Positions 17,536-32,970 of a stretch of DNA of 50,856 bases are shown one piece after another. The DNA comes from Thermovorax subterraneus. GTDB lineage: Bacteria; Bacillota; Thermosediminibacteria; Thermosediminibacterales; Thermosediminibacteraceae. Every line of letters begins with the position of its first letter. The first letter of the stretch is position 1. Both the position numbers and the translations under genes were made by a program. The notes below the pieces were generated by a model. The model was not told where the DNA came from. It made no database searches and saw nothing but the letters and a program-made list of their open reading frames with translations. Where the stretch lies: contig JAKIHM010000018.1 in assembly GCA_021608145.1 (NCBI GenBank), forward strand, positions 1 through 50,856, in the 5' to 3' direction.

Positions 17536-17680
17536 TTAACTAACCGGCTTCCTCGCCGCTTTTGGAAAATCAAAGGCTATCGCCGCCAGGGTAAATAATC
17601 CGAGAAGGTACGGGTAATAAAGACGCGGCTCTTGTATTTTTCGGTTGATCAAGTTTAACAGGTAATCTATACCGCCTAAG
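17536..17680 (-). other. Possible short ORF or gene remnant after the gamma-lyase
   Basis: A minus-strand frame reads [20 protein letters not shown], then a likely membrane helix YPYLLGLFTLAAIAFDFP and a basic end, to TAA at 17536. It looks protein-like, but there is no start codon or ribosome site, and the upstream frame lies antiphase inside the gamma-lyase gene. It is most likely a degraded gene end. Nothing else is seen in 17538-17675. Confidence 0.3.
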
Positions 17681-18863
17681 CTTGCAAGCTTTCCTGAACC
17701 CGCCTTAAAGCCTGGTCCAAATCCGCTATTATATCCTCCACATCTTCTATACCGACCGAAAGCCTCACAAGGCCATCTGTAATACCAGCTTTCAACCTTT
17801 CCTCTCTCGGCACGGGAGAATGCGTCATTGAAGCCGGATGCTGAATCAAGGAATCCACGCATCCCAAACTCACCGCAAGGGTTATCAATTTAACGCTGTT
17901 CATTAAGAGCTTGCCTGCCTCTATTCCGCCTTTGAGTTCAAAACTTATCATGCCGCCGAAGCCATCCATCTGCCTTTTTGCCAGTTCGTGTTGCGGGTGA
18001 GAAGGAAGCCCAGGATAGTAGACCTTTTCTATAATTGGATGGTTCTCCAAATATTCCACCACCTTCTGAGCATTCTGGCAGTGACGGTCCATCCTAAGGC
18101 CTAGAGTTTTTATCCCTCTCAAAAGGAGCCATGCATCAAAGGGGCTGATTACTCCGCCTATATCCTTAAGATACGGCATCTTCATTTCGGTTATCAAATC
18201 CTTCGGTCCGACGATTATACCCGCAATTACATCGCCGTGGCCGCCTATATACTTGGTGGCGCTGTGGACCACAACGTCAACTCCGTGCTCGATGGGCCTT
18301 TGCAGGTACGGCGTCATAAAGGTGTTGTCGACGACCACCTTCGCACCCGCCCTGTGGGCTATTTCTGCCGTCCCCTTGAGGTCCACCAGCTTCAAGGTGG
18401 GGTTGGCTGGAGTTTCCACATATACCACTTTGGTGTTTGGCTTGATGGCTTTTTCGAGATTCGAAAGGTCAGAAAGGTCAGTAAACGTAACTTCTATCCC
18501 GTATTTGGGAGCTATATGGCTCAAAAAGCTGTGGGTGCATCCGTAAAGGGTGTCGTTGGCTACGATGTGTTCCCCCTGCTTTAGCAGGGTAAACAGCACC
18601 GTAGAAATGGCTGCCATACCGGAAGCGGTGGCTATAGCCGCCTCACCGCCTTCCAAAATCGCCATTTTTTCTTCCAGTTCCGTGACGGTGGGATTGCCTA
18701 GCCTGGTGTAAATATAACCTCCTTCTTCACCGGCGAAGCGCCTCGCACCCTGGTCGACGTTTTCAAAAACGAAGGTCGAAGTCTGGTAAATCGGCGTAAC
18801 ATGGGCCCCGGTCACCGCGTCATGCTTTTGTCCGGCGTGAATGGCCTTTGTGTTAAAACCCAT
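17676..18863 (-). CDS. Methionine gamma-lyase / cystathionine gamma-synthase family PLP enzyme
   Basis: 395 residues, complete. The PLP lysine is in [12 protein letters not shown] (about residue 208). YTRLGNPT and SGMAAIST are the conserved cofactor-binding loops. LYGCTHSFL carries the active-site Cys typical of methionine gamma-lyases, favouring degradation of methionine to methanethiol, 2-oxobutyrate and ammonia over cystathionine synthesis. ATG 18863 follows CAGGAGGG. The upstream region has a sigma-54 promoter and three TyrR-like dyads, and a TyrR-like activator gene lies immediately upstream. This points to induced amino acid catabolism; 2-oxobutyrate could enter the ferredoxin oxidoreductase-Ptb-Buk route at 26-31 kb. 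Confidence 0.88.
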
Positions 18864-18903
18864 AAAAATTCCCTCCTGAGTGATTTTCTACACAAAACTC
18901 CTT

Positions 18904-18919
18904 CGCAAAAACCGTACCA
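18904..18919 (-). promoter_or_regulatory. Sigma-54 promoter (-24/-12) of the gamma-lyase gene
   Basis: Minus-strand TGGTAC (18919-18914), 5-nt spacer, TTGCG (18908-18904), against consensus TGGCAC-N5-TTGCW. It lies about 41 bp upstream of ATG 18863. The neighbouring activator has the GAFTGA sigma-54 contact motif. Confidence 0.8.
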
Positions 18920-18949
18920 TCGCTTCCGGGGCCGGATTTAGGCCTTTTC

Positions 18950-19017
18950 GGTAAATTTTTTTACCATTCTGTCGCCTTTGCCGGTTAATAATATTACCTT
19001 TGGTTATTTATTTTACC
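18950..19017. promoter_or_regulatory. Three 16-bp TyrR-box-like dyads (activator sites)
   Basis: Minus strand, from distal to proximal: GGTAAAATAAATAACC (19017-19002), GGTAATATTATTAACC (18998-18983), GGTAAAAAAATTTACC (18965-18950). All fit GGTWA-N6-TWACC. Centres are 19 and 33 bp apart and lie about 50-105 bp upstream of the -12 element, as expected for enhancer sites. The E. coli TyrR box TGTAAA-N6-TTTACA is similar. Confidence 0.75.
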
Positions 19018-19031
19018 ATTTCCTCAGACCA

Positions 19032-20609
19032 TCAGGTTTCTTTCTTTATCCCGTAACTTCTCATCTTATTCAATACGGTAGCATGGGTCACCCCAAGCAG
19101 CTTTGCGGCTTCCCTTATGCTTTTTGACCTCGAGAGAGCATCGAATATGGCCCTTTTTTCGGCTTCCTCCACCACCTCTTTCAGATTCTTACAGGGCGTT
19201 TTACCGCACGGCTGTTTGACGTAAAGCGAGTCGCTCAACTCTTCTTCTTTTAATACTAAATGTTCGACTCCGATGACTTCATCGTCGCACAGGTTTATGG
19301 CCCTCTCTATCACGTTTGAAAGCTCCCTCACGTTTCCGGGCCAGTCATACTCCATAAGTTTTTTCATCGCTTCGGAGCTTATACCGTTAATCCTTTTCCC
19401 CACCTTTTGGCTCAGCTTCTTTATTAAATGCCTCGCTAAAATCGGAATGTCTTCCTTCCGGTCCCTGAGGGGTGGTATGAAAATGGGAATGACGTTTAGC
19501 CTGTAATAAAGGTCCTCCCTGAACTGGCCCTCTTTCATGAGTTTTTCTAAGTTTCTGTTGGTCGCGGCAATTATCCGAACATCCACCGGGATTTCTTCGT
19601 TCCCGCCTACCAGCCTAATTTTACCCTCCTGGAGCACCCGGAGGAGCTTCACCTGCAGGTAGGTGGAAAGCTCACCTATCTCGTCCAGAAAAAGAGTACC
19701 CTTGTCGGCATATTTAAAAAGCCCCTGCTTTCCGCCTTTTTTCGCCCCCGTAAAAGCGCCTTCCTCGTAGCCGAAAAGTTCGCTCTCTAGAAGAGTATCC
19801 GGAATTGCAGCACAGTTTACGGCGACGAAGGGTTTATTCTTCCTCGGGCTTGCCATGTGAATGGAACGGGCGAAAAGTTCCTTGCCCGTCCCGCTTTCGC
19901 CTCTTATTAGCACGGTAGAATTACCTTTTGCAGCAATCTTGGCTATCTCCTTTATCCTTCTCATCTTCTCGCTTTCGCCGAGAATTTCCTCAAAGGTTAT
20001 CATCGCCGGCTGGGCAAAGGAATATACGAGTTCCATCACGTTTTCAATATCCTGAAGCGACGCCACAACTCCCACAGGATTGCCGTCCTGGTCCAGGATG
20101 GGACGTCCCGAGGTTATATAGTGACTTTTGGTCTTTTGGTTATTCAAAACGATTTCCACGTTGTCATAACTTTCTCCCGTCTGCAAAGTCCTCAACATCG
20201 GTATGTCCGGGGCGAGTATTTCCGCCACAGGCCTGCCGATGGCTTCTTTAGCCTTGATTTTTAGTATTTTTTCTGCCGCTGGGTTGAACGCAGTGATTAT
20301 GCCGTTCCTGTCTATGGCGATTATGCCTTCAACCGCTGCATCCAAGACGGCCTTTATTTCTCTTTCCTTTTTCTCCTGGGGCATCATTTTTATCCTTTCA
20401 ACTTCCAACACATCTTTTTCCTGAAGCAGCTGTTCCTTCAAAAAGTCGAAAAAAAGGCCTTCGGCCTTTTCTATTTTCAAAAAGGCTAATCCGGGTGCCA
20501 CTTCCATGGCCTTCAGGTTTATACCATGCCTGTAGAGTACTTTTAACATGTCGAGGGCCATACCAACCCTGTCTTTGGTCTTCACCACAAAACAAATTGT
20601 TTCGCCCAT
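19032..20609 (-). CDS. TyrR-like sigma-54 activator (ACT-PAS-AAA+-HTH)
   Basis: 525 residues. An ACT-like amino acid-sensing domain (1-75; [17 protein letters not shown]) is followed by PAS (about 88-190; [19 protein letters not shown]) and the AAA+ domain (208-440) with Walker [15 protein letters not shown] and Walker [11 protein letters not shown]-terminal TyrR-type HTH ([20 protein letters not shown], about 498-517) completes the TyrR layout. Unlike E. coli TyrR it keeps GAFTGA, so it should activate sigma-54 polymerase. It sits beside the gamma-lyase gene, whose promoter has TyrR-box-like dyads, and divergent to a HutP-family gene. The inducer is probably an aromatic or sulfur amino acid; this is inference. 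Confidence 0.9.
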
Positions 20610-20686
20610 ATTATCACCTCTTTAATTTTACAAAAATAATAAACTCATTCCCCACTTGAGAAATTAAGGAAATATTTTTATTGGCA

Positions 20687-20695
20687 TGCTATAAT
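20687..20695 (+). promoter_or_regulatory. Extended -10 promoter of the HutP-family gene
   Basis: TGCTATAAT (20687-20695), consensus extended -10 with a weak -35. The predicted start near 20702 excludes the in-frame TTG at 20681 as a start codon. Confidence 0.6.
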
Positions 20696-20725
20696 AATTT
20701 TAAAAAAGTCAAAGAGGTGGGAGAT

Positions 20726-21139
20726 TTGGAAAGCATCGATGTGGCGAAAATCGCCATAAAGATGGCTCTTTCGAGCCGGGAAGAGGAAATGGAGTTTAAG
20801 GAGAAATATTCGAAAATGCACGTCAGGGCGGCTGCCGTCGACTTCGGAGGAGATTTCAATAACTCCATCAAAAAAATCATAGAGCGGACTTTGGTGGCCG
20901 CAAAACGAGAAGGAGTAATCGAAGAGGGAAAGCACGTGCAGGAGGGAGCTTTGATAGGTGCGGCAAGAGAAGCCCTCTCTCAGGTGACGCAAAAGGCCCT
21001 GGGATTAAACGTGGGAGGAAAAATAGGCATGGCAAGGTGCGGCGAACATATATGCGTTGCCATGTTCTTCGGCGTGGGGTTCCTTAACCTCAACGAAGTG
21101 GCAATAGGCCTCGGACACAGGTCTATTCCGAGTTTTTAA
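20726..21139 (+). CDS. HutP-family RNA-binding antiterminator-like protein
   Basis: 137 residues, close to B. subtilis HutP (about 150). Shared pattern: a helical half (KKIIERTLVAAKREGVI, then EGALIGAAREALSQVTQKAL) and a beta-rich C-terminal half ending FLNLNEVAIGLGHRSI, as in the HutP end GLEHETFGVGINHI. HutP is a hexamer that binds UAG-repeat RNA with histidine and Mg2+ and prevents termination in the hut leader. TTG 20726 follows GAGGTGGG. No hut genes are present; instead the next transcription unit has a leader with three GGUAG repeats and an intrinsic terminator. This is the obvious candidate target. Confidence 0.85.
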   Translation: MESIDVAKIAIKMALSSREEEMEFKEKYSKMHVRAAAVDFGGDFNNSIKKIIERTLVAAKREGVIEEGKHVQEGALIGAAREALSQVTQKALGLNVGGKIGMARCGEHICVAMFFGVGFLNLNEVAIGLGHRSIPSF

Positions 21140-31406: not shown

Positions 31407-31422
31407 AGCAAAAAATATACCA
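31407..31422 (-). promoter_or_regulatory. Sigma-54 promoter of the leucine dehydrogenase operon
   Basis: Minus-strand TGGTAT (31422-31417), 5-nt spacer, TTGCT (31411-31407), against TGGCAC-N5-TTGCW. It is 38 bp before TTG 31369 and next to a sigma-54 activator gene. Confidence 0.75.
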
Positions 31423-31456
31423 ATCGGCCGAACACCTTGAGGGGAGGGTTTCCCGT

Positions 31457-31545
31457 GTAATTTTGTTCTCACTAATGTATACTTTTGTTCTCATTCATTA
31501 TTTTGCAAGGCATTAATACACTATTAATGTATACTATTGTTCTCA
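31457..31545 (+). repeat. Direct-repeat activator sites upstream of the leucine dehydrogenase operon
   Basis: TAATGTATACTTTTGTTCTCA (21 bp written in two parts: TAATGTATAC and TTTTGTTCTCA) lies at 31473-31493 and, with one change, at 31525-31545, 52 bp apart. A third TTGTTCTCA core is at 31463-31471, 22 bp from the next. Spacings are near whole helical turns. They are 40-140 bp upstream of the promoter, suitable enhancer sites for the BkdR-like activator. Confidence 0.7.
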
Positions 31546-31566
31546 TTTTTTTCGCAATCGTTGCAT

Positions 31567-32970
31567 TTATTCGATTGTTTCGTTACTTTCTAATAACTTC
31601 AACTTTTTATAAAGTGCCCTTCTTGTTATTCCGAGGTCTTTTGCCACTTCTGTTTTTGACTTTCTCTTACTCAGAAAATAACTGATGACCTTTGTCTCAA
31701 ACTCTTTTTTCACTTGCTCCCAATTCTTGCCATTCAAATTTATAATAATCTCGCCGTCCTCGAGTTGCCTCATGATCCCTTGCTGTTCCACTAACTCCGG
31801 TAGGTATTCGGGTTTTATCTCCTTATCAGAAATATCCATGTTTATCATTGCCCGGCTTATCACATTTTCTAACTCTCTCACGTTTCCAGGCCAGTCATAG
31901 GCCATTAAAATCTCCAGAGCTTTTTTTGATATAGAATTAACTCCTCTTCCATACTTTTGGTTGTACTTTTTTATTATGTTCTTGCAAAGGAGTGGTATAT
32001 CTTCCTTTCTTTCCCTCAAAGGCGGTATTGTTATCCTCACTACGTTGAGTCGGTAATAAAGGTCGTGTCTGAAATTTCCCTTTCGCACTTCTTCTTCCAA
32101 ATTACGGTTGGTTGCCGCTATAATCCTAACGTCGACTTTCTTCGGAACGGTGCTACCTATCCTCATCACTTCTTGCTCTTGAAGCACCCGCAAAAGCTTT
32201 GCCTGAGCAGGAAGGCTGAATTCGCTTATCTCATCTAAAAACAGCGTCCCGCCGTCAGCCTGTTCAAAATATCCCTTTTTCCCATACCTAAGCGAACCGG
32301 TGAATGCACCCCCTTCGTATCCGAAAAGCTCGCTTTCCAAAAGTTCTTTATTTATTGCAGCACAGTTAACCCTTACAAACGGTCCTGAAGCCCTTGGGCT
32401 CATATTATGGATGGCGTGCGCGAAGAGTTCCTTGCCGGTTCCGCTCTCTCCAACGAGCAATACCGTTGCCGACACGCCGGCACAGGCTTTAGCCTCCTCT
32501 TTTGCCTTCAAGATCTTTTCGCTGTTTCCCAGTATATCATCCAGCGTATATTTGGACTCCAAGTTGCGAAGCATCCTCGTCTTTTGTTCCAATTCCCTGC
32601 TCATCCTTTTAATCTCTGAAATGTCGTGCATTACGCCTACGCTTCCCACCAGTTCTCCTTTGATGTAAATCGGTTTTGCACTGCAAAGGACCTCTCGCTT
32701 GTCTGGACCCACCCGACGGAGGAGGTTGGAAAATTCCCTTTTTTCGCGAATCGATTTGATGAGAACGCTGTCACTTTCCGCTATGTCGACATCCGCTGGT
32801 TTTCCCACCACATCTTCTTCCGAAAGACCGCTCAAGTTTTTATAAGCCTGGTTTACCATTATGCAGTTTCCTTCTCTGTCGGCCACCATAACGGCATCCG
32901 GGATCATTTCGATAATATTTTTTAAAAGCTCTATCACATATTCCGCCTCGCCTTTGAGAGAGGGAACCAT
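31567..32970 (-). CDS. BkdR-like sigma-54 activator (PAS-AAA+-Fis HTH)
   Basis: 467 residues. PAS (about 15-125; [20 protein letters not shown]), AAA+ (145-380) with [14 protein letters not shown] (a variant of the sigma-54 contact motif GAFTGA) and LFLDEISE, then a Fis-type HTH ([20 protein letters not shown]). Start ATG 32970 follows GGAGGGGT. It is the usual arrangement of BkdR-type activators next to branched-chain amino acid genes. Expected targets are the sigma-54 promoter and repeats in 31407-31545. Confidence 0.9.

Follow-up and report, generated by a model that had tools for sequence, protein, structure and literature searches.

A putative sigma-54 enhancer and promoter before the methionine gamma-lyase gene of Thermovorax subterraneus, with a TyrR-like activator encoded upstream

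The methionine gamma-lyase gene (mdeA) of Thermovorax subterraneus lies behind a sigma-54-type promoter and a cluster of dyad sites, and these in turn follow the gene of a TyrR-like activator. Very probably, this arrangement is the form taken in this bacterial class by the clostridial MdeR regulon, with mdeA expressed from a sigma-54 promoter and enhancer under the activator encoded upstream. Support for this explanation comes from the adjacency of activator and mdeA, the conservation of the dyads and promoter, the presence of rpoN, and the domain make-up of the activator. For Clostridium, Nie, Dong and Yang predicted in 2019 that MdeR controls mdeA-metT through sigma-54 (PMC6615313); their Table 1 lists MdeR for Clostridium only, with sites of the form TGT-N10-12-ACA.

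The features of interest fall within one part of the window, by which we mean the whole stretch of 50,856 nucleotides that was analysed. In the order of transcription they are as follows.
19032-20609, minus strand: TyrR-like sigma-54 activator, 525 aa (Pfam, similarity to 2jhe and 1g2h, GAFTGA read directly)
19002-19017 (18-bp frame 19001-19018), no strand assigned: distal dyad GGTTATTTATTTTACC, centre at about -116 from the predicted start, aligned in nine family genomes
18983-18998 (18-bp frame 18982-18999), no strand assigned: middle dyad GGTTAATAATATTACC, centre at about -97, aligned in nine family genomes, the most degenerate of the three
18950-18965 (18-bp frame 18949-18966), no strand assigned: proximal dyad GGTAAATTTTTTTACC, centre at about -64, arms nearly invariant in nine family genomes
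18904-18919, minus strand: candidate sigma-54 promoter TGGTAC-N5-TTGCG (-24/-12), TGGTACGGTTTTTGCG, GG-N10-GC spacing, aligned in 9/9 family genomes
17676-18863, minus strand: mdeA, methionine gamma-lyase, 395 aa (TIGR01328, 599.3 bits, cutoff 549.7)
17539-17677, minus strand: metT remnant (Na+/H+ antiporter-family transporter; blastn and tblastn against the metT of L107)

Both genes are read from the minus strand with the activator first, so the roughly 170 bp between them form a co-directional rather than a divergent intergenic region: the activator stop codon is followed by the three dyads, the -24/-12 element and then mdeA. A preliminary description of this DNA had placed the dyads and the promoter between the gamma-lyase gene and a TyrR-like activator, and both the positions and the genes are borne out by the sequence. 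On its other side the activator gene adjoins a divergent HutP-family gene (20681-21139 in the window).

The three dyads that had been proposed are exact matches to GGTWA-N6-TWACC, beginning at 18950, 18983 and 19002, and the window holds no others. They are above chance: 100 dinucleotide shuffles of the window gave a mean of 0.18 dyads, and none gave three or more. Exact dyads occur at 18 places in the genome, whereas the pattern reversed as a control occurs at 7. The idea that such dyads mark a wider regulon here was considered and rejected, as the places examined outside the window (all but five, most of which are at contig ends) lie within open reading frames; these genome-wide regulon searches consisted of pattern matching only. 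Dyads at most 20 bp apart were found in 6 of the 9 family genomes, always and only at the activator-mdeA locus, while the reversed control pattern gave no such pairs in the family genomes.

The dyads are better described in an 18-bp frame, TGGTAA-N6-TTACCA, than in the 16-bp one. The larger frame keeps the geometry of the TyrR box, in which an invariant G and C stand 14 bp apart (PMC4374768). A reading of the sites as 16-bp GGT-N10-ACC elements, unlike the 18-bp TyrR box, was set aside; when the centres are aligned and the flanking T and A included, the two frames are identical. Dyad arms are A+T-rich and 5-6 bp long, and the dyad centres keep conserved distances of about 19-20 and 33 bp, which approximate whole turns of the helix.

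The promoter claimed in the preliminary description, TGGTAC-N5-TTGCG, is present on the minus strand from 18919 to 18904 (TGGTACGGTTTTTGCG) with the GG-N10-GC spacing of sigma-54 promoters. Its -12 element would put the mdeA start near 18893, and the dyad centres would then fall near -64, -97 and -116. Relatives carry the form TGGCAC..TTGCA/G, which is nearer to the published consensus than the element in the window. The sigma factor itself is encoded: the DNA-binding domain of rpoN is found at C1:35679 (E 1.7e-63), so the genome combines rpoN with a -24/-12 promoter at the target gene. Strong sigma-54 activator domains are found in about 18 of its proteins. Elsewhere in the window (31408-32970), a second sigma-54 activator gene (31567-32970) is followed by a sigma-54-like promoter (31422-31408). 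The genes after it resemble a Leu/Phe-type dehydrogenase, butyrate kinase, phosphate butyryltransferase and indolepyruvate oxidoreductase (iorAB), a grouping similar to the ZypR regulon of the literature (tyrB-iorAB-butK).

Judged by its domains, the protein encoded upstream of mdeA is a TyrR-type sigma-54 activator, and by NCBIfam it is neither TyrR itself nor PrdR. Its AAA+ sigma-54 domain (PF00158) scores 244 bits and, as had been claimed, retains GAFTGA, read directly at residues 284-289, as expected of a sigma-54 enhancer-binding protein. Residues 11-178 match the N-terminal structure of E. coli TyrR (2jhe, E 9e-10), consistent with an ACT-PAS arrangement, of which Pfam reports the PAS domain and not the ACT. 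The C-terminus is a TyrR-type helix-turn-helix (HTH; PF18024, 61.8 bits, cutoff 27) with weak similarity to Haemophilus TyrR (1g2h, E 0.003), and its recognition helix carries A510. Against the equivalog for TyrR proper (NF008085) the protein scores 353.8 bits, short of the cutoff of 576. Its best NCBIfam score, 441 bits, is to PrdR (NF041552), the regulator of proline reductase in Clostridioides difficile, and lies well below that family's cutoff of 795.

A lack of the dyads before orthologous gamma-lyase genes had been named as what would refute the proposal, but they are conserved there across the family and the order. Orthologues of the activator occur in all nine family genomes, 80-97% identical to that of the window and with mdeA next in every case, and the alignment of the nine intergenic regions runs through all three dyads as well as the promoter. 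Columns in the dyad arms have a mean identity of 0.95, as do those in the promoter, against 0.73 in the dyad centres and 0.70 elsewhere between the genes; some of these genomes have an imperfect middle dyad. In order-level orthologues (67-71% identity) both the adjacency and the dyads are kept, with spacings of 19 and 33-34 bp and a canonical promoter, for example TGGCACATATCTTGCA. Taken together, these patterns most likely reflect a working and well-conserved sigma-54 enhancer and promoter. L085, an orthologue at greater distance, still has mdeA and the promoter, with boxes that are less clear and that overlap a hairpin. At L085 (3070-3120) and downstream of the activator at L118, TyrR-type boxes lie within long terminator-like inverted repeats, and enhancer and activator transcript end may overlap there.

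Farther afield, a sample of the phylum yielded activator relatives at 50-57% identity over the whole protein, and a scan of named genomes gave relatives mostly 32-60% identical over the N-terminal part of the activator. At about 39 named loci mdeA comes immediately after the activator gene, and a strict pattern finds a promoter at 37 of these; in 38 such loci 64 boxes reached a score of at least 5.5, compared with 1.4 expected from shuffles. Most of these loci carry TGTAAA or TGGAAA boxes rather than TGGTAA, so that the GGTWA arms given in the preliminary description hold for the window's own lineage and not for the other orthologues. Four loci with close activator relatives (L089, L090, L097 and L122) continue instead with a patatin-like gene, with no sigma-54 promoter between the two by the pattern used.

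As for the target, the lyase scores above the curated methionine gamma-lyase cutoff of TIGR01328 (599.3 vs 549.7 bits). In the sister genomes L107, L111 and L113, mdeA is followed by a Na+/H+ antiporter-family gene that fits metT, which matches the published mdeA-metT operon of MdeR. The window itself holds a mere remnant: relative to the gene of L107 it lacks two internal stretches, so that a 53-bp piece and the 30 C-terminal codons are left. No other close copy of metT was found in the genome, the best other match being only 29% identical, and the remnant may stem from an assembly fault. A locus of Clostridium ganghwense (L144 6764-9890) has two near-identical tandem copies of mdeA and then a gene with a metT-like start.

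Most likely, then, the window's system is the MdeR regulon in another class. As in the published regulon, a sigma-54 activator is encoded near its target mdeA-metT, with several upstream sites. The identification with MdeR rests on the Clostridium loci found here, which match the published description: these orthologues share the gene order and carry TGTAAA-N6-TTTACA boxes, of the form TGT-N12-ACA. The window's clade differs in having TGGTAA-N6-TTACCA boxes and Ala in place of a recognition-helix Thr; its GGT-N10-ACC sites depart from the TGT-N10-12-ACA motif at two positions of the arms, which counts against the identification.

Nor is the general design without precedent. GcsR of Pseudomonas aeruginosa is likewise a TyrR-like sigma-54 activator of amino-acid catabolism that adjoins its target, and three 18-bp boxes upstream of its RpoN promoter make it a direct precedent, although it is Gram-negative, acts on glycine cleavage and has the box TGTAACG-N4-CGTTCCG (PMC4894688). 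PhhR of Pseudomonas, a TyrR homologue with GAFTGA, activates a sigma-54 promoter for amino-acid breakdown, the amino acids being aromatic and the target a different one (PMC1173090). Enteric TyrR shares the order of ACT, PAS, AAA+ and HTH domains and the 18-bp frame with G and C 14 bp apart, but lacks GAFTGA, works with sigma-70 and governs an aromatic amino acid regulon from boxes with TGTAAA arms, where the window has TGGTAA. Thus the earlier statement that Gram-negative TyrR works mainly with sigma-70 is right for the enteric protein and not for the whole family (PMC1173090). By the same token, the idea of a TyrR-type protein acting as a true sigma-54 regulator fits the GAFTGA motif, rpoN, the promoter and the conserved enhancers, but cannot be called new, with PhhR, GcsR and MdeR preceding it.

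What does seem new is a covariation between box and recognition helix, since Ala at the helix and TGGTAA in the sites each occur only in the window's clade. The relatives share an 18-bp frame, TG-XY-AA-N6-TT-Y'X'-CA, in which XY is TA in Clostridium, Caloramator and others (the TyrR box), GA in several lineages, GC at most loci where the target is alanine dehydrogenase (ald), and GT in the window's class. Loci were sorted according to the residue that follows the conserved His in the recognition helix; the box score omits positions X and Y, so the comparison of residue with XY is not built in. Half-sites read GT in 14 of 16 cases where the residue is Ala and in 0 of 138 where it is Thr. Along a stretch of 40 HTH residues, no column but this one has letters exclusive to each group (Ala in 11/11; Thr in 49 and Arg in 1 of 50).

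The ald loci themselves, five of them named, have that gene downstream of an activator relative instead of mdeA, with 12 boxes at a score of at least 5.5 vs 0.33 expected. The window's own genome has such a paralogue before ald at C14:29940. Its locus (L040 9927-12742, C14) holds one perfect TGGAAA-N6-TTTCCA box (TGGAAACTTAAGTTTCCA) and a sigma-54 promoter (TGGCACAAATTTTGC); its loop reads GTFTGA, not GAFTGA, and it keeps Thr where the mdeA activator has A510. Ald regulators of this type are absent from Table 1 of Nie et al. (PMC6615313), and in Desulfovibrio ald is known to have a sigma-54 regulator (PMC4641369). One tentative scenario, which we think somewhat doubtful, is that the Thr to Ala change (A510) switched the box from TG(T/G)(A/C)AA to TGGTAA in the ancestor of the class, preventing cross-talk with this alanine dehydrogenase paralogue and its TGGAAA box. 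That said, a tree from which the HTH was left out shows one change of this residue, and since this is a single event and all features of that clade are intercorrelated, any cause assigned to the covariation is hypothetical.

In the mechanism that we favor, dimers of the activator would occupy the 18-bp TGGTAA-N6-TTACCA boxes, all three of them, near -64, -97 and -116. The signal would come from inside the cell, most likely as methionine or a metabolite related to it, and be sensed through the ACT-PAS part, upon which the AAA+ domains would assemble, presumably as an oligomer, and the GAFTGA loop would remodel sigma-54 polymerase at the -24/-12 element, turning methionine breakdown on. Two observations sit less easily with this account, namely the closeness of the proximal site to the promoter, compared with the usual enhancer distance of 100-250 bp (Nie et al., PMC6615313), and the less clear boxes of L085.

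The dyads might instead be bound by a different regulator, activator or repressor, with the neighboring TyrR-like protein acting elsewhere. The genome offers about 18 candidates with strong activator domains, and operators often have the shape of such dyads. We consider this improbable in view of the restriction of paired dyads to the place beside activator and mdeA, the fit of their TyrR-box geometry to a TyrR-type HTH, the covariation of box and recognition-helix residue across orthologues, and the separate, different box that the closest paralogue has beside ald. Still less credence attaches to TyrR-style regulation, in which the activator would repress or activate mdeA at a conventional sigma-70 promoter. 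Its homologue enteric TyrR does just this, and a site at about -64 would suit class I activation as well, but GAFTGA, missing from the sigma-70 type of TyrR, is intact here, and every family genome keeps the -24/-12 element, which in relatives is nearer to the published consensus. Lastly, the suggestion that the dyads act in RNA, as a leader or as a terminator after the activator gene, finds some footing in the hairpin-forming sequence around them in two distant relatives (L085 and L118) and is nonetheless scarcely credible, with the dyads placed before the promoter, where the predicted mdeA transcript does not reach, their arms A+T-rich and short, their centers spaced near whole helical turns, and no Rfam match in a search of the window at the gathering threshold.

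With the regulation of mdeA by the TyrR-like activator as the preferred reading, a predicted sigma-54 regulon of methionine breakdown in the clostridia would extend to an anaerobic class for which it had no earlier listing, and would be tied firmly to the TyrR-like group of proteins. The relatives also provide a natural series of boxes (TA, GA, GC and GT at half-site positions 3-4) matched to nearly identical recognition helices, so that a rule for how the TyrR-type HTH reads bases may be tested by a single point mutation.
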